A stretch of DNA of 64,000 bases, from positions 17,831-81,830 of the forward strand of contig QHQA01000154.1 in NCBI GenBank assembly GCA_003219695.1, given 5' to 3'. Origin of the DNA: Verrucomicrobiota bacterium (GTDB lineage: Bacteria > Verrucomicrobiota > Verrucomicrobiia > Chthoniobacterales > UBA10450). This document shows, in pieces, positions 3,720 to 63,691 of the stretch. Numbering within the stretch: position 1 is the stretch's first letter; the number at the start of each line of letters is the position of its first letter. The position numbers were made by a program, and so were the translations under genes. The notes under the pieces are model-generated. The model was not told the DNA's origin and did no database searches. It saw nothing but the letters and a program-made list of their open reading frames with translations.

Positions 3720-3884
3720 CTGTCATTCCGAGCGAAGCCGAAGGCGAAGTCGAGAATGCAGCGGCTGGGGAAGCCGCGATATAGACGTGAAGGCCAGAGG
3801 CTGAACGAACGGGAGTGAGCGAATCAAATCTCTCGAGGTTGGCAGTTTCAAACAGAGATGTCTCGACTCCGCTCGACATGACAG
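3720..3884. repeat. family C palindromic repeat (GAGCGAAGTCGAG type), copy 1
   Basis: The element begins TGTCATTCCGAGCGAAG and ends CGACTCCGCTCGACATGACA, which are near reverse complements, with an unusually long interior. It sits immediately upstream of the SOS promoter. Four more copies lie near 9951, 28541, 43881 and 49842. Confidence 0.8.
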
Positions 3885-4986: not shown

Positions 4987-5446
4987 CGGGAATCCTCATT
5001 CGAGATTCGAGATTCGAGAATCGTGAATCGGGCAGCCGATGTAACGATGTAACCAATTAACGATTCACGGATGCAATGAGCTACATCGAATTACATGCCT
5101 GCAGCGCGTTCAGCTTTTTGCGAGGCGGTTCGTTCCCCGAGCAATTAGCTGAAGTCGCTGCGGAACTGGAAATGCCGGCGATGGCTTTGCTCGATCGCAA
5201 CGGCGTTTATGGCGCGCAACGATTTTCCGTTGCTGCGCGCGAGCACGGCGTGCGACCCATCATCGGCTGCGAATTATCCATGTAAGACAGCAGTGTTCTG
5301 CCGGTCTTGGTTGAGAACTGCACGGGTTACAAAAATTTGTGTGAGTTGCTGACCCAGGCGCATCTGCGCAGCGAAAAAGGACAATGCGCAGTGCGTTGGG
5401 ATGAGCTGCCGCAATTCGCGGAAGGTTTGGTGGCGCTCTTTGGGAC

Positions 5447-5574
5447 GGGGAGCACAGGCTGCCAGCCTGTAGTTTGTGGCAGCTTGCCGCAAACATCTTT
5501 CCATCCCACGCGTGTAAAAACCGAGAGCGTCCGGCAAGCTGCCGGACGCGACAGGCTGGCAGTCTGTGCTCCCC
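5447..5574 (-). repeat. family A three-stem palindromic element inside dnaE2, copy 1
   Basis: The outer arms are 24 nt beginning GGGGAGCACAGGCTGCCAGC and matched in reverse complement at the far end with one mismatch. They enclose two hairpins, GTTTGTGGCA/TGCCGCAAAC and GCGTCCGGCA/TGCCGGACGC. The element is read in frame as GSTGCQPVVCGSLP...LAVCAPQKAE and falls in a PHP-domain loop. Its inner hairpins are in the reverse order of copy 2, so the two copies are in opposite orientation. Confidence 0.92.
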
Positions 5575-7804
5575 AGAAGGCAGAAAACCGCGCGCGATTT
5601 CTGATCGATGCCTTTAGTCGCGAAGATGTTTTTGTTGAGCTCCAGAGGCATTTCATTCGCGGCGAGGAACGGATCAATCGCGAATTGATCGATCTTGCGC
5701 GCGCGTATCGGTTACCGCTTCTCGCCACCAACGGCGTGCAATATGCCAAGCCTTACGGACGCGAAGTGTTGGATGTTTTCACCTGCATTCGCGAGCACAC
5801 GCATCTGGATGCCGCAGGCAAATTGCTCACCCAAAATGCCGAGCGCCATTTGAAGAGCGATCGGCAAATGCGAGAAATTTTCGCGGATTTGCCGGAAGCG
5901 ATCGAAAACACATCACGCCTGGGCGAGCAGCTCACGTTTTCGCTGGAGAATCTCGGTTACGAATTTCCATCGTATCCGGTGCCGGCCGGTCACTCGATGG
6001 ATTCGTTTTTGCGCACCATTGTCTGGTTCGGCGCGCAACAGCGTTACGCGGCGATCAGCGCGAAGGTGAAACGCCAGATCGAGGAAGAACTCGCGCTGAT
6101 AATCAAGCTCGGTTTCCCGGGATATTTCCTGATCGTGTGGGACATCGTCAATTTCTGTCGCGAACACAACGTCATGGTCCAGGGCCGTGGCAGCGCCGCC
6201 AATAGCGCGGTTTGTTATTGCCTGGGGATCACGCCGGTGGATCCGGTGGAAAATCATCTGGTTTTCGAACGTTTCCTCAACGAGAGCCGCAAAGGCTGGC
6301 CCGATATCGATCTCGATCTTCCCAGCGGCGACCGTCGCGAAGCGGTGATCCAGGAAATTTATCGCCGGTACGGAAAACACGGCGCGGCCATGACCGCAAA
6401 CGTGATCACCTATCGCGGGCGCAGCGCGGCGCGCGAGATGGGTAAAGCGCTCAATTTTTCGCCGAGCATCATCGATCAGTTCTCGCATCTGTTTGCCAGC
6501 GGCGATTTCCCGCACACGCTCGAGCTCGAATCGCAGATTGAGCAGGCAGGTTTGCCGAAAGCGCATCCGCGGATGCCGGCCTTCATCAGGCTGTATCACG
6601 CTATTTACGGCTTGCCGCGGCACCTTGGCCAACATTCCGGCGGCATGATCATCTGCCAGAACAAACTGAGCTCCTTTGTTCCGCTGGAAAACGCCTCCAT
6701 GCCAGGTCGCGTAGTCGCGCAATGGGACAAGGACGATTGCGAAGATCTCGGCATCGTGAAAGTGGACTTGTTAGGCCTCGGCATGATGTCCGTAATGCAG
6801 GACGCACTGGAGCTTTGCCACGAGCGCGGCCGGCCTCTCGATCTCGCGCACATTCCAAAGAACGACGAGAAAACTTTCGAGATCATGCAACACGCCGACA
6901 CCATTGGCGTGTTTCAAATCGAAAGCCGCGCACAAATGGCGACGTTACCGCGAATGAAACCGAAATGTTTTTATGACGTGGTGATCGAGGTGGCGATCAT
7001 CCGGCCGGGACCGATTCAGGGCGACATGGTGCATCCCTATCTTGCGCGGCGGGCAAAACGCGAACCGGTGACATATTTCGACGATCGCTTAAAGCCGGTG
7101 CTCGAACGCACGCTCGGAGTGCCGTTGTTCCAGGAACAAATGCTCAAGATCGCCATGGTGATGGCGGATTTTTCCGGTGATCAAGCCGAGGAATTGCGAC
7201 GCGCGTTGAGTTTTCATCGTTCGGAAGAGCGGATGAACAAAGTCTGCGCGAAAATGCGTGCGGCGATGGAACGCAAAGGTGTCGCGCCCGACAAGATCGA
7301 AAAAATCATTCAATCGATCTCGTCCTTTGCGCTTTACGGCTTTCCCGAATCGCACGCGATCAGTTTCGCCATTCTCGCCTACGGGAGCGCATATTTAAAA
7401 GTGCATCGCGCGCAGGAGTTTTACGTCAGCCTACTGAACAATCAGCCGATGGGTTTTTACACGCCGGCGACGATTGTGAAGGATGCGCAGCGGCACGGAG
7501 TGAAGATCAAGCCGGTTTGCGTCGCGCAATCCCAGTGGCGCTGCACAGTGGTCGATGACAACACAATCCGCCTCGGCTTTTGCGTCGTGAACGGATTACG
7601 CCAAGAGCATGCCGAAGAACTCGTCAGGCAACGACAAGAGCGACCATTCGAGTCGCTCGACGATTTCAAGCGGCGCGTCCCGCTCTCGAAAGATGAATTG
7701 CGTAGTTTGGCGGAACTCGGCGCGCTCAATTGTTTTGCTGAACATCGCCGCGCGGCCATGTGGGACGTGGAAGAAACGCTCCACGATGATTTGCTGGATC
7801 GTCT

Positions 7805-7935
7805 GGGGAGCACAGGCTGCCAGCCTGTAGCGTCCGGCAGCTTGCCGGACGCATTGGAAGATGTTCCCATGCGTGGAATGGAAAGAGGTTTGCGGCAGGC
7901 TGCCGCAAACAACAGGCTGGCAGCCTGTGCTCCCC
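7805..7935 (+). repeat. family A three-stem palindromic element inside dnaE2, copy 2
   Basis: The 24-nt outer arms are perfect reverse complements. The inner hairpins are GCGTCCGGCAGCTTGCCGGA-type followed by GTTTGCGGCA/TGCCGCAAAC. It is translated in frame as GSTGCQPVASGSLPDALE...LAACAPQKAE, between the helical region and the conserved LPPMTLPERVKADYE segment, a place where DnaE2 proteins vary in length. Confidence 0.92.
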
Positions 7936-8377
7936 AGAAAGCGGAATCCCCCCTCCCACCAATGACCTTACCCGAGCGCGTGAAAGCAGATTACGAAACA
8001 ATGAACCTGACCACCGGACCGCATCCGATGAAATTGTTGCGCGCAAATTTGCCGACTATTTGGCGTGCGATCGATCTCGTTCACGCGCGCCACGGTTCGA
8101 CCATTCAAATCGCCGGCAACGTGATTTGCCGCCAGCGTCCGGGCACAGCGAAAGGATTTGTCTTTGTCAGCCTCGAAGACGAGACCGGCGTCTCAAACGC
8201 AATTGTCGAGCCTGATTTGTTTGAACGCTTCCGCCTCGTGATCACAGAAGAAGATTTTCTTTTGATCGAAGGCGAAGTTCAAAATTCCGACAACGTCGTT
8301 TTGATCAAAGCCCGCCAGATCAAACCCCTCGCGCATGAGCAACTCATCGGGAGTGAGTCGCACGATTTTCGCTGATC

Positions 8378-9917: not shown

Positions 9918-9950
9918 TTTAGTATCTCCTTTCCACAAATCGTTGATAAT

Positions 9951-10044
9951 GTCATTCTGAGCGAAGCGAAGAATCTCTGATTATTTCTGCATCGAATCGC
10001 TCCCGAAAACAAACGGAGATGTTTCGCTTCGATCAACATGACAG
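9951..10044. repeat. family C palindromic repeat, copy 2
   Basis: GTCATTCTGAGCGAAGCGAAG at the left and TTCGCTTCGATCAACATGAC at the right are near reverse complements. The element occupies the divergent gap between gnd and moaE, so promoters for both genes must overlap or abut it. Confidence 0.8.
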
Positions 10045-10075: not shown

Positions 10076-10534
10076 GTGATAAGTCTGGTTTGCAAAGTTT
10101 TAGTAACCGAAGCGCCGCTTGAGGCGCCGCCGATTGAAGTCGAGCCTGCCATCGGCGCGGCGGTTGATTTTTTTGGGATCGTTCGCGGCTCGGAGGATGG
10201 GCGCGAGATCGAGGGAATCGATTACGAAGCGCACCGGGAAATGGCAGAACATCAATTGAGAAAAATCGTTGAGCAGGCTACGGAGAATTTCGGGCTCAGG
10301 CAGGTCTTCATTTATCATCGGATCGGATTCATCGCTGTTGGTGAACCGTCGCTATTTATGCGGGTGTGCAGTCCCCATCGGAACGAAGCGTTTCGGGCTG
10401 GTCAATGGATCGTAGATGAATTGAAGAAGAAAGTGCCGATTTGGAAAAGGCCAAACTTCAAAGCAAACGTTGTAGCCGGCGTCGGTGACGCCGGATCGGA
10501 GCCGGGATCAACGATCCCGGCTACAGCGAAATGA
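10076..10534 (+). CDS. moaE: molybdopterin synthase catalytic subunit MoaE
   Basis: The large subunit of molybdopterin synthase, which uses MoaD thiocarboxylate to convert cPMP to molybdopterin in the cytosol. Family features are AAVDFFGIVRG near the N-terminus, YEAHREMAEHQL in the middle, HRIGFIAVGEPS, and the catalytic lysine region DELKKKVPIWKR. It has 152 residues with a GTG start; GGAAGGAAG lies about 14 nt upstream. After the normal end near PNFKANV, the tail VVAGVGDAGSEPGSTIPATAK is encoded by a palindromic family B element. The stop overlaps the ATG of pgsA (ATGA). No moaD or other Mo-cofactor gene is adjacent. Confidence 0.92.
   Translation: MISLVCKVLVTEAPLEAPPIEVEPAIGAAVDFFGIVRGSEDGREIEGIDYEAHREMAEHQLRKIVEQATENFGLRQVFIYHRIGFIAVGEPSLFMRVCSPHRNEAFRAGQWIVDELKKKVPIWKRPNFKANVVAGVGDAGSEPGSTIPATAK
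10471..10525. repeat. family B element forming the 3' end of moaE
   Basis: TGTAGCC...GGCTACA arms enclose two hairpins, CCGGCGTCGGTGACGCCGG and GCCGGGATCAACGATCCCGG. The 55-nt element encodes the last residues of MoaE and ends seven nucleotides before the moaE stop/pgsA start overlap. Confidence 0.92.
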
Positions 10535-17270: not shown

Positions 17271-17311
17271 GTGGGCGCTAATGAGTTGCTAACCACGAAC
17301 GACTATCAATG

Positions 17312-17431
17312 CCGAAATCCGAATGACAAATGACGAAGCTCGAATGACGAAAAAGGGATGAAAGCCTTCATCTCTGTTCGGGTTTCGTCATTAGGATTTC
17401 CTTCGTCATTCGACATTCGTGCTTCGTCATT
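17312..17431. repeat. family D palindromic repeat, copy 2
   Basis: GAATGACAAATGACGAAGCT at the left and TTCGTCATTCGACATTCGTG at the right are complementary words around a central hairpin (GATGAAAGCCTTCATC). It separates exbB from exbD inside an otherwise tight operon. Confidence 0.75.
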
Positions 17432-17432
17432 G

Positions 17433-18149
17433 TTATAGATCCTGGCGTGCTTCGATCTCGCGTGCCGTTTCGTCCGGTTGTTGAAAGCTGATGATGCCAC
17501 TGATGGGGCGGCTTTCAGTTAGCATGTGGACCACCTCAATCCCGGCGCGTTCCATGTCGTGCAGCATCGTGTTCACGCGCGAAGAGAGATAACTGTAAGC
17601 GACAAAAGTGACCGTGGCCACCACGAGGCCTGCCGCAGTGGTCAGCAAACTCTTATAAACACCGCTGGAAAGCTCTGTCACGGTCGCATAACCGCCGCTT
17701 GAAGCGATGGTCCCGAAGGCGTCGATCATTCCCGCAACAGTCCCAAGTAATCCAAGCAACGGCGTCAGAAAAGCGATGGTCGCCAGCACGGGAAGAAAGC
17801 GCTCCAGTTTCGGCACTTCGAGCTGCGCGGCTTCCTGCACAATGTCGCGCAATTCCGCGCGCGGCGCGTCGTGCCGGATAATCGCCGCATGAATCACCCG
17901 CGCGACCGGGCCCGGCGTGCCGGCGGATTCATGCAGCGCTTCGGCGAAATTGCGCCGGCGAATCAGATTCGACAGACCCTTCAAAAATTCGCCCACATGA
18001 ATCGTTGCGCGATGAAAATAAAAGAGGCGCTCGGCAAAAACAGCTATCGCGATGATGCTGCAGCCCAGAATCGGCCACATCAACAATCCGCCCTTTTGGA
18101 TGTAATCAATCACGCCGGTTTTTCTAACGCTCTTTCTCGGCTGTGGCAA
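17433..18149 (-). CDS. exbB: ExbB/TolQ/MotA-family proton channel protein
   Basis: A 238-residue protein with three membrane segments: LLMWPILGCSIIAIAVFAERL near the N-terminus, and two after a cytoplasmic loop (FLPVLATIAFLTPLLGLLGTV and LLTTAAGLVVATVTFVAYSYL). The TPLLGLLGTVAGMIDAF motif is the ExbB/TolQ signature. GTG 18113 (VIDYIQKGG) is an alternative start that many homologues would support; ATG 18149 is kept here. It forms the channel with ExbD to energise the TonB-like protein. The family D repeat lies between it and exbD. Confidence 0.92.
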   Translation of the reverse strand: MPQPRKSVRKTGVIDYIQKGGLLMWPILGCSIIAIAVFAERLFYFHRATIHVGEFLKGLSNLIRRRNFAEALHESAGTPGPVARVIHAAIIRHDAPRAELRDIVQEAAQLEVPKLERFLPVLATIAFLTPLLGLLGTVAGMIDAFGTIASSGGYATVTELSSGVYKSLLTTAAGLVVATVTFVAYSYLSSRVNTMLHDMERAGIEVVHMLTESRPISGIISFQQPDETAREIEARQDL

Positions 18150-28540: not shown

Positions 28541-28623
28541 GTCATGTCGAGCGAAGTCGAGACATCCCGCGGCGGTACCTGAGAGCTGTGCCGCGGGATT
28601 CCTCGACTCCGCTCGGAATGACG
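28541..28623. repeat. family C palindromic repeat, copy 3
   Basis: GTCATGTCGAGCGAAGTCGA and TCGACTCCGCTCGGAATGAC are near reverse complements, and an inner hairpin (CCCGCGGC...GCCGCGGG) lies between them. It interrupts the otherwise continuous dcw operon between the LysM gene and ftsW. Confidence 0.85.
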
Positions 28624-36480: not shown

Positions 36481-36845
36481 AGGCGAAGCGCCAAGCCCCA
36501 ACATCCAAGCTCCAGAGAAATTCCAAGCATCAACATCCGAAAAGCGCAAAATCACGCCGCGTGGGCTTTGAGTATTCGGACGCTGCTGACAAAACATGGG
36601 TTTTAAAAGAAGAGAGTCCAGACAGAGAACAAGCACCTAAACATCCATTCGATTTAGAAGAGCGCACGGCGCGGTTTGGCGAAACAATGGTGCGCTTTTC
36701 GAGAAGCTCCAACGTCCAGAATAATATCAGGAGATCAAGACGTGGTGGGCCAATGATTTGGAAATTTGGGCTTCGCGATTCTCTGGATGTTGGAGATTGG
36801 AGCTTGGTGGTTAGTAATCGCAGTAGCAGTAACACAGCGCGCTAA
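36477..36845 (+). pseudogene. remnant of a four-helix-bundle (S23/IVS-like) protein gene
   Basis: An ATG overlapping the ftsA stop opens a 122-residue frame. The middle part, HPFDLEERTARFGETMVRFS, resembles the N-terminus of the four-helix-bundle proteins related to 23S rRNA intervening-sequence ORFs, which normally have about 120 residues. The rest of the bundle is missing, and both ends of the frame are repeat sequence. It is probably debris carried by the family E element rather than a working gene, although the frame remains open and could be translated by coupling to ftsA. Confidence 0.55.
36490..36811. repeat. family E inverted-repeat element with gene remnant, between ftsA and ftsZ
   Basis: The left end has CAACATCCAAGCTCCAGAGA and the right end CTCTGGATGTTGGAGATTGG followed by AGCTTGG, which are complementary words of one family. 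The interior encodes a fragment of a four-helix-bundle protein. A shorter copy without an interior gene lies at 52501-52617. This is the only stretch over 300 bases without an intact gene in the dcw cluster. Confidence 0.8.
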
Positions 36846-43880: not shown

Positions 43881-43953
43881 GTCATTCTGATCTGAGTTGA
43901 GGAATCTCGATTTTGGTTCAGTAGGAGATGTCTCAACTTCGCTCGATGCGACG
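43881..43953. repeat. family C palindromic repeat, copy 4
   Basis: GTCATTCTGATCTGAGTTGAG and CTCAACTTCGCTCGATGCGAC are imperfect complements around GGAATCTC/GGAGATG. It fills the aceK-polB gap, and an ATG at 43928 inside it is in frame with polB. Confidence 0.75.
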
Positions 43954-48647: not shown

Positions 48648-48701
48648 TGTAGCCGCGGCCCTGTGGGCCGGGCGCACGCGTCGCACAGCGACGCGGCTAC
48701 A
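48648..48701. repeat. family B-like element between carrier and epimerase genes
   Basis: TGTAGCCGC...GCGGCTACA arms enclose GGCCCTGTGGGCC and GCGTCGCACAGCGACGC hairpins. On the minus strand its outer arm supplies the TAG stop of the epimerase gene and lies where the ribosome-binding site of the carrier gene should be. Confidence 0.88.
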
Positions 48702-49841: not shown

Positions 49842-49924
49842 ATCATTCCGAGCGAAGTCGAGGAATCTCTTGCTCCTATCGCATTTAACGGCGAGAGATG
49901 TCTCGACTCCGCTCCGACATGACC
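49842..49924. repeat. family C palindromic repeat, copy 5
   Basis: ATCATTCCGAGCGAAGTCGAG and CTCGACTCCGCTCCGACATGA are near reverse complements, with GGAATCTC/GAGATGTC inside. It occupies the divergent gap between the epimerase and aldo/keto reductase genes, and its last bases contain the ATG used by the latter. Confidence 0.85.
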
Positions 49925-52467: not shown

Positions 52468-52500
52468 AGACGGCTGAAGGACGAGCATCAAACGCGCTCG

Positions 52501-52617
52501 AAGCTCCAAGACCCAAGCTCCAACATCCAGAGAAATTTCAAAAACCAATGTTCAATCGCCCGTTTGGAGCTTGATATTGGAATTTCTCTGGAGCTTGGAT
52601 GTTGGAAGTTGGAATTT
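52501..52617. repeat. family E inverted repeat without interior gene
   Basis: AAGCTCCAACATCCAGAGAA at the left and TTTCTCTGGAGCTTGGATGT at the right are complementary. Compared with the copy at 36490-36811 it has no protein-coding remnant. It fills the gap between the sulfotransferase and aminotransferase-like genes. Confidence 0.82.
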
Positions 52618-53545: not shown

Positions 53546-53575
53546 TTTGGGACTCCTTGGAGGAAAACGCTCAAC

Positions 53576-53652
53576 GCCCAACTCCCAACACCGAATGCTC
53601 AACTATCTGAATTGGACGTTGGGGTGTTGGACGTTGAGCGTTGGGCGTTGAG
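53576..53652. repeat. family F inverted repeat (AACGTTGGGCGTT type), copy 1
   Basis: AACGCTCAACGCCCAACTCC on the left and GGACGTTGAGCGTTGGGCGT on the right are complementary, with CAACACC/GGTGTTG closer to the middle. It lies between convergent aminotransferase-like and msrA genes. A half copy precedes pepF at 63651-63685. Confidence 0.88.
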
Positions 53653-57288: not shown

Positions 57289-57783
57289 TCAAGACTTTGG
57301 GCTTGGCACGAGCAGCACGGGGCGAGTCGCGTGTTTGAGAACGCCTTTGGTCGCGCTGCCCACAAGCAAATGATACATGGCGCCGTGCCCATGCGTTCCC
57401 ATCACGATGAGGTCGGCATTAATTGCGTCTGCTTGATTTAAGATTTCTTCTGCCACCGACCCGGTCGGCTGGTGCAACGTCACCTTGGTGCCCGCTTGCG
57501 CGATTTCTTTTTCCCATTGCGCAAGCTGCGACTTTTGGTTTTCGCTCTCTGGAATTGTCTGGGGCATGGAGTTAAATCCGGGGACAGGCACGCCTGAGAC
57601 AGGTGCAAGCTCAGGCATCCCAGCCAGGCCGTAGCTGAGAGCGCCGGGAGCAGTAGCGGCGGTGAGTTCTCTCACGTGCGCCAGATGAATTTCTGCATCG
57701 AGAGCTTTTGCGAGTTGTCGCGCTACCTCGATCACAGCCGGCGTTGCATCTGAAAAATCCACTGCGACCAAAATGCGTTTCAT
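57289..57783 (-). CDS. universal stress protein, UspA family
   Basis: A 164-residue cytosolic protein with the ATP-binding consensus G-2x-G-9x-G(S/T) in GTHGHGAMYHLLVGSATKG and the N-terminal RILVAVDFSDATPAVIEVA. Compared with the core family it has a roughly 20-residue insertion (ALSYGLAGMPELAPVSGVPV) after the third strand. It lies downstream of comEC on the same strand but without overlap, and probably has its own promoter. Confidence 0.93.
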   Translation of the reverse strand: MKRILVAVDFSDATPAVIEVARQLAKALDAEIHLAHVRELTAATAPGALSYGLAGMPELAPVSGVPVPGFNSMPQTIPESENQKSQLAQWEKEIAQAGTKVTLHQPTGSVAEEILNQADAINADLIVMGTHGHGAMYHLLVGSATKGVLKHATRPVLLVPSPKS

Positions 57784-57825
57784 GCGCGCATGCCAGCTTA
57801 CGTGGCGCGCTGCTTTATCTCAACA

Positions 57826-57884
57826 TCAAGGAGCGGCGGTCTCCTTGTCCGCCGCTGGGCGATCTGGAGATCGCTCCTCCTTGA
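57826..57884. repeat. family G three-stem palindromic element
   Basis: TCAAGGAGCG and CGCTCCTCCTTGA form the outer stem, enclosing GCGGCGG-TCTCCTTGT-CCGCCGC and GCGATCTGGAGATCGC. The architecture (outer stem plus two hairpins) is like families A and B although the sequence differs. It lies in the divergent gap between usp and rarA. Confidence 0.8.
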
Positions 57885-57933
57885 GAGATGGATCACGATT
57901 GCCTGCATCGGGCGCACACCGTAATTTTCCTTC

Positions 57934-59148
57934 GTGCAGGATCTTTTTGGCGAGAGAGAAGAACTCGACATCCAAAGCGCGGACCGCGCCGCGCCACTCG
58001 CTACGCGCATGCGTCCGCGCTCGCTCGAAGAATTTGTTGGCCAGGAACATATTTTGGCGCCCGGCAAACTTTTGCGGCGCGCGATTGAAGCGGATCGTTT
58101 GCCGTCAGTGATCTTTTCCGGGCCACCGGGAAGCGGCAAGACCACGCTGGCGCGGATCATTGCGGAGATGACGCACGCGAAATTTATTCGGATCAGCGGC
58201 GTGGAAAGCAACGTCGCCGAGATGCGGCGCGTCATCGCGTCGGCCACGAATCGTCTCCGCACATCGGGACAAAGGACGATCCTGTTCATCGATGAGATCC
58301 ATCATTTCAACAAGGCGCAACAGGACATTCTCTTACCCGATGTTGAGAGCGGAAACCTGCGACTCATCGGGGCGACCACTTACAATCCGTTCTTTTACGT
58401 AAATAGCGCGCTGGTCTCGCGCTCGCAGGTCTTTCGACTCGAACCACTCAGCGTCGAACAACTCGAACAATTGATCGATCGCGCGATGGCCGACAAAGAG
58501 CGCGGCCTCGGAAACTACAACGTCGAAATGGACAAGAATGCGCGCCGTCATCTCGCCAAGCTCAGCGACGGCGACGCCCGCAAATGCCTAAACGCTCTCG
58601 AGATCGGAGTGTTGACGACACCGCCTTCTGTAGCCGGGGGCGGTGACCCCGGCACCGCGATCAACGATCGCGGCCCCAACGTAATTCACTTCACTCTCAC
58701 GGTCGCCGAGGAAAGCATCCAGCAAAAGGCGATCGTTTACGATCGCGTCGGCGACGCGCACTACGACACTATCAGCGCGTTTATCAAAAGCATGCGCGCA
58801 TCCGACGAAAAAGGCGCGATGTATTGGCTGGCAAAAATGCTGCATGCCGGCGAAGATTTCCGATTCATTGCGCGACGCATCGTTATTTTCGCCAGCGAAG
58901 ACATCGGCCTCGCCGACCCTGACGCGTTGCGATTAGCGATCGCGACGCAGCAAGCCGTCGAATTTGTAGGGATGCCCGAGGCGCGCATCCCTCTCGCGCA
59001 CGCTACCGCTTACATGTGTCGCGCGCCCAAAAGCCGCGAAGCTTATGATGCGCTCAACGCCGCAACCGAGAAAATCGAGATGGAACAAACCAAACGCGTC
59101 CCCGAGTATCTGAAGAACAAGCATTTCCCGGTAAACCCAGAAGAGTGA
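57934..59148 (+). CDS. rarA: replication-associated recombination protein RarA (MgsA)
   Basis: A 404-residue clamp-loader-like AAA+ ATPase acting at stalled forks. PRSLEEFVGQEHILAPGK, Walker A GPPGSGKTTLAR, Walker B ILFIDEIHHFNKAQQD, sensor 1 LIGATTYNPFF, and the C-terminal YDRVGDAHYDTISAFIKSMR and EDIGLADP are diagnostic. The start is GTG. A family B element is translated in frame (SVAGGGDPGTAINDRG) between the AAA+ lid and the tetramerisation domain. The protein stops at YLKNKHFPVNPEE, about 40 to 50 residues before the usual end (no LP-x-ELKGRxYYxP-type tail), so the C-terminus is shortened. Confidence 0.94.
   Translation: MQDLFGEREELDIQSADRAAPLATRMRPRSLEEFVGQEHILAPGKLLRRAIEADRLPSVIFSGPPGSGKTTLARIIAEMTHAKFIRISGVESNVAEMRRVIASATNRLRTSGQRTILFIDEIHHFNKAQQDILLPDVESGNLRLIGATTYNPFFYVNSALVSRSQVFRLEPLSVEQLEQLIDRAMADKERGLGNYNVEMDKNARRHLAKLSDGDARKCLNALEIGVLTTPPSVAGGGDPGTAINDRGPNVIHFTLTVAEESIQQKAIVYDRVGDAHYDTISAFIKSMRASDEKGAMYWLAKMLHAGEDFRFIARRIVIFASEDIGLADPDALRLAIATQQAVEFVGMPEARIPLAHATAYMCRAPKSREAYDALNAATEKIEMEQTKRVPEYLKNKHFPVNPEE
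58629..58680. repeat. family B element inside rarA
   Basis: TGTAGCCGGGGGCGGTGACC with the matching CCCCGG half forms the first hairpin, and ACCGCGATCAACGATCGCGG the second. The right outer arm (GGCTACA in other copies) has decayed to CCAACGTA. The frame of rarA stays open across it. Confidence 0.8.
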
Positions 59149-60842: not shown

Positions 60843-60869
60843 CGCCAGAGCAATTCAGCCCTGGAAGAT

Positions 60870-61006
60870 AATGACGAAGCACGAATGCCGAATGACGAAT
60901 GACGAATGAAGCACGAAGCCCGAATGATGAAGAAGCGAGGTTACCACCGTTCGTCATTTGATCATTCGTCATTCCTTCGAGCTTCGTCATTCGGATTTCG
61001 TCATTC
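60870..61006. repeat. family D palindromic repeat, copy 3
   Basis: GAATGCCGAATGACGAATGA at the left and TTCGTCATTCGGATTTCGTC at the right are complementary, with further GAATGAT/ATCATTC and GTTACCACC in the centre. It fills the gap between convergent prenyltransferase and rpiB genes. Confidence 0.82.
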
Positions 61007-61010
61007 TTTC

Positions 61011-61442
61011 TTACATCGCGTTTAGCATCGCCACGCGCCGCTCGTGACGCCCGCCATCGAAACCGGTTTCGAGCCAGATGCGCACGACGTTCAGCGCGAG
61101 ATCCTCGGGGATCAGACGCTCGCCCATTGAGAGCACGTTCGCGTCATTGTGTTGCCGCGACAGCCGGGCCGATTCTTCGTTCCAACAAAGCGCGCAACGC
61201 ACGCCATGGACTTTGTTTGCCACCATCGCTTCGCCGTTCCCCGAGCCGCCGAACACGATGCCACGCTCGCATTCGCCGCGCGCGACTGCTTCCGCCGCGG
61301 GGCGGATGAAAAGCGGATAATCCACCGGGTCTTCGCTGAATGTGCCGAAGTCTTTCACTTCGTGTCCAAGCGAGCTCAGCAGTTCTTTCACCTTCTCCTT
61401 GTACCGAAAACCGGCATGATCTGAACCAAGAGAAATTTCCAT
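61011..61442 (-). CDS. rpiB: ribose 5-phosphate isomerase B
   Basis: A 143-residue RpiB/LacAB-type isomerase interconverting ribose 5-phosphate and ribulose 5-phosphate. SLGSDHAGFRYKEKVKELL, DPVDYPLFIRPAAEAV, FGGSGNGEAMVANK and the active-site RCALCWNEESARLSRQHNDANVLS are family motifs. The usual GTGIG loop is GGSGNG, with Ser-Gly in place of the nucleophile-bearing GTG/C variants. ATG 61442 is chosen because the family starts at this point; the upstream ORF part is not conserved. Confidence 0.95.
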   Translation of the reverse strand: MEISLGSDHAGFRYKEKVKELLSSLGHEVKDFGTFSEDPVDYPLFIRPAAEAVARGECERGIVFGGSGNGEAMVANKVHGVRCALCWNEESARLSRQHNDANVLSMGERLIPEDLALNVVRIWLETGFDGGRHERRVAMLNAM

Positions 61443-63633: not shown

Positions 63634-63650
63634 ATAACGTCGTCCGAATT

Positions 63651-63685
63651 CGGCGTTGGACGTTGGGCGTTGAACGTTGGACGTT
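63651..63685. repeat. family F half element before pepF
   Basis: CGGCGTTGGACGTTGGGCGT with GAACGTTGGACGTT is the right arm of the family F repeat without its left partner. It ends 6 nt before the pepF start codon and so replaces the usual place of a ribosome-binding site. Confidence 0.72.
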
Positions 63686-63691
63686 TTCCGA

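Follow-up and report, generated by a model that had tools for sequence, protein, structure and literature searches.

The palindromic element at positions 57826-57884 of the window, as we call the 64-kb stretch of DNA analysed here, raises the question why it is built on the same plan as two other repeat families, A and B, which differ from it in sequence. An earlier note had regarded the three families (A, B and G) as unrelated sequences that converged on one three-way-junction design, whose fold would be recognised by a mobilising enzyme or a cellular RNA-binding factor. The architecture, the copy number, stem covariation, matching transposase ends, lineage pairing and the differing occupancy of orthologous sites were all observed directly and lead to a different answer. 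Very probably, the element is a non-autonomous REPIN moved by a RAYT transposase of the matching lineage, and families A, B and G resemble each other since the transposases that they serve are branches of one superfamily.

The G element was found at exactly the coordinates given before. It has the order TCAAGGAG / CGGCGGTCTCCTTGTCCGCCG / CTG / GGCGATCTGGAGATCGCTC / CTCCTTGA, in which an outer inverted repeat (TCAAGGAG/CTCCTTGA, matching at 8 of 8 positions) encloses two hairpins. The element, its parts and its neighbours are:

57826-57884, no strand: family G REPIN (REP doublet), end design identical to that of the autonomous element L098
57826-57833, + strand: left outer repeat TCAAGGAG, with the guide tetranucleotide GGAG
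57834-57854, + strand: left hairpin CGGCGGTCTCCTTGTCCGCCG, comparable to CGGCGGTCTCTAGTCCGCCG in L098
57859-57874, - strand: right hairpin, GCGATCTCCAGATCGC in the - strand reading
57877-57884, - strand: right outer repeat, equal to TCAAGGAG on the - strand
57289-57783, - strand: universal stress protein (usp) gene, left neighbour
57934-59148, + strand: RarA-like AAA ATPase gene, right neighbour

The folding energy of the G element was well below that of shuffled sequences (z = -6.4 for the + strand and -5.0 for the - strand; none of 200 shuffles folded as well). With DNA energies the predicted minimum was a three-way junction of -19.9 kcal/mol, with RNA energies a single long hairpin of -39.3. 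The predicted three-way junction is one of two competing folds of this element. An Rfam scan of the 64-kb window matched nothing other than tRNA. Within the adjacent RarA-like open frame a family A1 half (TGTAGCCGGGGGCGGTGACCCCGG) was noticed at 58629-58652.

The families might simply be terminators, or hairpins that stabilise the 3' ends of mRNAs, and resemble each other by chance. Strong intergenic inverted repeats would fit this explanation, and REPs are able to act on RNA (PMC3733652). However, the usp and rarA-like genes diverge from the intergenic G element, no intrinsic terminator-like site was detected at 57750-58000 and the element carries no T-run. A plain terminator, which had been named as a possible refutation, is therefore excluded for the copy at 57826-57884. 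Moreover, the B copies lie within an open frame and the same ends bound transposase genes. We consider this explanation extremely unlikely.

The copies of families A and B were present in the window as described previously:

10471-10525: family A REPIN (TGTAGC..GCTACA), subfamily A1; the same ends bound RAYT L066 in the source genome
45532-45613: family A REPIN, A1, with a long spacer
48648-48701: family A REPIN with A3-type hairpins; A3 ends bound RAYTs L151 and L165
63585-63633: family A REPIN with A2-type hairpins; A2 ends lie on both sides of RAYT L149
5447-5574: family B REPIN, in frame within dnaE2
7802-7938: second family B REPIN, likewise in frame within dnaE2
5307-8375, + strand: dnaE2 (error-prone DNA polymerase) open frame, host of both B elements (PRK05672.1, 1117 bits)

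The window dnaE2 has an in-frame TAA at about 5283-5285, a position occupied by a sense codon in relatives; the gene may therefore be broken here, or the assembly may contain an error. All three families share a REP-doublet plan of two inverted units, each consisting of a guide and a hairpin, and differ in sequence. Directly 5' of the hairpin family A has an unpaired GTAG, and families B and G have GGAG at this position. The published REP guide is GT(A/G)G (PMC3686654), from which the GGAG of B and G is a real departure. Further repeats were noticed in the window. Degenerate arrays of words such as GAATGACGAA / TTCGTCATTCG form long imperfect inverted repeats of a type unlike REPINs (1565-1697, 17304-17435 and 60869-61037), repeats of scrambled words (CCAAGCTCCAACATCC; TTGGACGTTGAGCGTTGGGCG) whose arms are inverted occur at 36484-36533, 52498-52613, 53566-53652 and 63649-63687, and inverted pairs GTCATGTCGAGCGAAGTCGAGACATC / TGTCATTCTGAGCGAAGCGAAGAATC at 3857-3882, 9950-10043, 28541-28622, 43927-43952 and 49843-49917.

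A lack of further copies would also have spoken against mobile elements according to the earlier note, and copies were plentiful. The source genome assembly (3.14 Mb, 224 contigs, 93% complete) is fragmented like most of the sister assemblies, and contig breaks and contamination are possible. It contained the pattern TGTAGC-N28-58-GCTACA at 35 places (backwards control: 19) and AAGGAG-N30-60-CTCCTT at 14 places (backwards control: 8), 11 of the latter with hairpins by eye, which gives about 11 G doublets in this genome. Because of this high background of the pattern searches, we relied on the hairpins within the matches and on the flanks of RAYT genes. A hairpin with at least 6 of 8 pairs was formed by 65 of the 70 family A halves; from base-pair odds we estimate that about 7% of random 28-mers would reach this value. 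BLAST detected additional G copies in the source genome with E-values down to 1e-10, and about 20 near-full-length G copies (81-92% identity) were located at unrelated positions in sister genomes.

Covariation was tabulated for 37 and 22 distinct halves of family A, in two registers, and for 29 halves of family G, a few of them chance matches. In the first register of family A, pair 11-19 occurred as GC 20, AT 10 and CG 4 times and was paired in 36 of 37 halves (20.6 expected); pair 7-23 was found as CG 23, GC 10 and G-T type 4 times (37/37 paired, 20.8 expected). Pair 13-19 of the other register showed CG 11, TA 6 and GC 5 times, with 22/22 paired versus 11.3 expected. Compensatory change exceeded independence at most stem positions in the A and G tables. 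The loop of the A halves kept the form C-NNT-G; the TGTAGC foot is invariant in this alignment because the search pattern demanded it. Since the stems covary and the guide and loop are fixed, the recognised unit is the half-hairpin and not the three-way junction. The same follows from the occurrence of solo halves and of doublets with unlike stems.

Consequently, the proposal that the fold and not the sequence is recognised had to be given up: guide and loop are conserved as sequence, and only the stem is free to covary. One might still suppose that a cellular nucleic-acid binding factor recognises the whole three-way junction, as RNA or as cruciform DNA. The DNA-energy minimum of the window copy and the plan common to three families speak for such a factor. 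Yet a single long hairpin was preferred by 13 of 28 A and 8 of 11 G doublets with RNA energies and by 11 of 28 and 6 of 11, respectively, with DNA energies. Solo halves exist, stems often differ between the halves of a doublet, and specificity follows guide and loop along the RAYT lineage. Nothing points to a cellular RNA-binding factor, and recognition of the whole junction is very improbable in our opinion.

As stated before, no transposase is located nearby. No Y1 transposase match was obtained within the 64-kb window; 14 Y1_Tnp matches were found elsewhere in the source genome, several of which are RAYTs by profile. The HxH, Y and NP columns of the RAYT catalytic core were invariant. L066, L069 and the G RAYT scored above the cut-off of NCBIfam NF047646, L065 and L070 slightly below, and the nearest solved structure was TnpA-REP 4er8 (E 4e-15). 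RAYT genes with the same ends as the window elements were indeed found outside the window, in agreement with the suggestion that the latter are non-autonomous. For family A, L066 of the source genome is flanked on both sides by TGTAGCCGGGATCGGTGATCCCGG, which is the A1 end, and A1 ends also bound RAYTs L120, L122, L123, L124, L141 and L143. For family B, the source genome encodes RAYT L065, in frame in recG and bounded by TCTGGGGAGCACAGGCTGCCAGCCTGT and its inverse; B ends were likewise observed at RAYTs L073 and L074.

For family G, several related species possess RAYTs with ends of the type TCAAGGAGCGGCGGTCTC.AGTCCGCCG on either side (L098/L341, L342 and L349). The L098 RAYT is bounded on both sides by the G end TCAAGGAGCGGCGGTCTCTAGTCCGCCG and is identical to that of QHNQ01000110.1, a Verrucomicrobia MAG. 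The 8 nt TCAAGGAG of the window element are also present at both ends of the RAYT loci L341 and L342. Close variants of the G ends bound L342, L349, L345 and L348, and G-type ends occurred on both sides in more distant Verrucomicrobiota (L212, L213 and L219) as well as in the more distant relative L348. The 93%-complete source assembly yielded no RAYT with G ends, so that family G may be orphaned in this genome or moved in trans. Both GGAG and GTAG are found in a single RAYT clade, and even in one element: L090 has GGAG at one end and GTAG at the other.

In order to relate end families to transposase lineages, a tree of 126 distinct RAYTs, obtained from the genus and from a search for the G type, was labelled by end family. 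Both these labels and the half-REP scan follow sequence rules that we defined. The 14 end-family states required 14 changes on the tree, compared with a mean of 57 and a minimum of 53 in 200 label shuffles. Restricted to the 45 of 126 RAYTs with the same named family at both ends, 13 changes were needed versus at least 29 after shuffling. A regular-expression label (A3 for L139) should probably read A1 and was retained as the conservative choice. Half-REPs of any kind were present on both sides of 64/126 RAYT loci and of 41/5000 random window intervals. Thus, end family tracks RAYT lineage almost perfectly, and at least 14 end families co-exist in the genus. Each of the families A, B and G represents the substrates of a single RAYT branch or, in the case of A, of several branches, one per hairpin subfamily. 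Because of this pairing A, B and G are not convergent in the way that had been proposed, but all carry the ends of one superfamily, each mapping to its own RAYT clade.

Six IS200-type genes (L001-L006) were also considered as movers and rejected. Most of them are flanked by other hairpins (AGCCCAGCG..CGCTGGGC; CCTGGGGC..GCCCCAGG), and the profiles that they matched, where tested, were those of IS200/IS605 and not of RAYTs. A TGTAGC-like hairpin is present in L001 only, on its 3' side. Among the IS200-like genes L002 and L005 on the one hand and L003, L004 and L006 on the other, the ends consist of AGCCCAGCGTTT.AACGCTGGGC or of CCTGGGGC..GCCCCAGG together with GCGCTGAAAGCGC hairpins, which are two more end types in this genome.

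The usp-rarA intergenic region was then compared among congeners. The element was absent from most of them; L244 contains an A4 element at this place, L246 and L267 contain a GGTAGGG half, and the closest relative, L241, contains a G element at a different offset. Base-exact target borders could not be fixed at usp-rarA since the flanks are too diverged. These observations bear on the idea that REP halves are domesticated chromosomal sites, used for instance by gyrase or in chromosome folding and kept by the host, with RAYTs merely nearby. Binding of gyrase to E. coli REPs (PMC3733652) and the maintenance of many RAYTs as single genes agree with it. However, congeners differ in their sites, unlike families share one intergenic region, and complete autonomous copies with matching ends exist. 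Domestication of this kind therefore appears most unlikely.

How a RAYT would move the G element can be judged from proteins studied in E. coli, Stenotrophomonas and Marinomonas (PMC8266576, PMC3116915), on which our ideas of single-strand binding, cleavage and movement are based. Most likely, a RAYT (REP-associated tyrosine transposase, HUH/Y1) of the matching lineage would bind each half during replication, when it is single-stranded and folded, read guide and loop and then cut beside the hairpins. The doublet would be moved as a unit and without target-site duplication.

Systems of this kind are known; the present one has GGAG guides, and no fewer than 14 families co-exist in the genus. The REPINs of Pseudomonas fluorescens and further RAYT hosts (Bertels and Rainey 2011, PMC3116915) are similar inverted doublets with a short spacer and a possible long hairpin, dispersed between genes and each paired with specific RAYTs. 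In contrast to them, B and G carry GGAG, the stems vary much more, guide and loop being the only fixed parts, a single genus contains at least 14 end families and the B elements lie inside genes. The GTAG-tagged palindromic repeats, including those of Opitutus terrae (Di Nocera 2013, PMC3733652), share the tetranucleotide foot with hairpin, head-to-head dimers, REPtrons and intragenic copies in DNA repair genes, and are known in Verrucomicrobia. TnpA-REP/RAYT proteins of E. coli, S. maltophilia and Marinomonas (Corneloup 2021, PMC8266576) belong to the same NF047646 / PDB 4er8 family, and guide, hairpin and loop would by analogy be the recognition features here as well. Our system differs by the GGAG guide and by the G-lineage RAYT of about 200 aa with an extra insert. 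The in-frame B copies in dnaE2 resemble the in-frame palindromic inserts of Rickettsia palindromic elements (RPE) in design. To our knowledge no transposase is known for RPE, whereas the ends of family B recur unchanged on an autonomous copy that includes a RAYT.

In dnaE2 two exact codon positions hold in-frame inserts in nearly every species (L270-L299), and the families of the inserts differ. All measured gaps at these sites were multiples of 3, and both B copies of the window are in frame. A few sites were nearly empty, with short remnants such as SACATQPE. REP inserts in genes of up to 82 codons have been reported, O. terrae included (Di Nocera 2013, PMC3733652). While that study described only REP inserts, whole RAYTs devoid of stop codons were found here within RecG, CarB and MetH. 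In the literature searched, which covered few subscription papers, housekeeping genes with an entire RAYT in their frame were not described.

The autonomous B element in recG (L065) is 618 nt long, a multiple of 3, and only one of its six frames, that of RecG, is free of stops. The RecG-RAYT chimera still scored above the recG profile cut-off. Complete stop-less RAYTs were found at the same recG loop in L065 (716-3436), L073, L074, L075, L080, L085, L086 and L088, and additionally in L090, L091, L108, L110 and L111. In congeners the loop was empty (39-75 nt, variable) or held a single B end (L318) or a doublet that lacks the transposase (L326); elsewhere in the genus its occupants were a B RAYT or an H RAYT. 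All inserts were in frame and stop-free except in the poorly aligned L325. Most genomes have a single recG; G006 and G012 have an intact and an interrupted copy. A second recG profile match per genome was rejected as Mfd-like (model positions about 195-608, frames of about 1100 aa).

A further RAYT lineage occupies one site in carB, the gene of the large subunit of carbamoyl phosphate synthase, in frame and in several genera (L071 of the source genome, L094, L095, L096 and L129, and also L350, L360, L363, L364 and L365). In many species the insert separates WFLRN.QQIVEEA from the conserved TYRLVDTCAAEF segment. In-frame RAYTs were also observed in metH (L070 and L078, with L076/L077 probably at a second metH site), probably in alaS (L079) and in a rarA-like gene (L100). 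In L069/L136/L138/L142 the RAYT precedes a cytochrome c-like gene and shares its frame. In a family-wide search for B-type RAYTs by far most full-length matches lay in open frames of more than 500 aa and about eight in frames of less than 300 aa; none had internal stops. The RAYT part showed a dN/dS of about 0.07-0.14, like free-standing RAYTs, with synonymous sites near saturation and many pairs unscorable. The in-frame RAYT part is under purifying selection, as measured for recG and carB. On balance, B-type and carB-lineage RAYTs of this Verrucomicrobiota family appear to be in-frame passengers of essential proteins, contributing an additional translated domain to RecG, CarB, MetH or AlaS, at the same site in many species and replaced, shortened or absent in others. 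Such an arrangement would avoid inactivation of the host gene and tie transposase expression to that of a housekeeping gene.

Transposases that are apparently domains of essential proteins bear on how such genes escape purging and how RecG or CarB tolerates them. For the REPINs, the resemblance of families A, B and G turns into a testable recognition code, with at least 14 pairings of transposase and hairpin in one genus in which the stems are free to vary. The genus is a natural data set on how RAYTs choose guide, loop and stem, and it extends the range of guides to GGAG.
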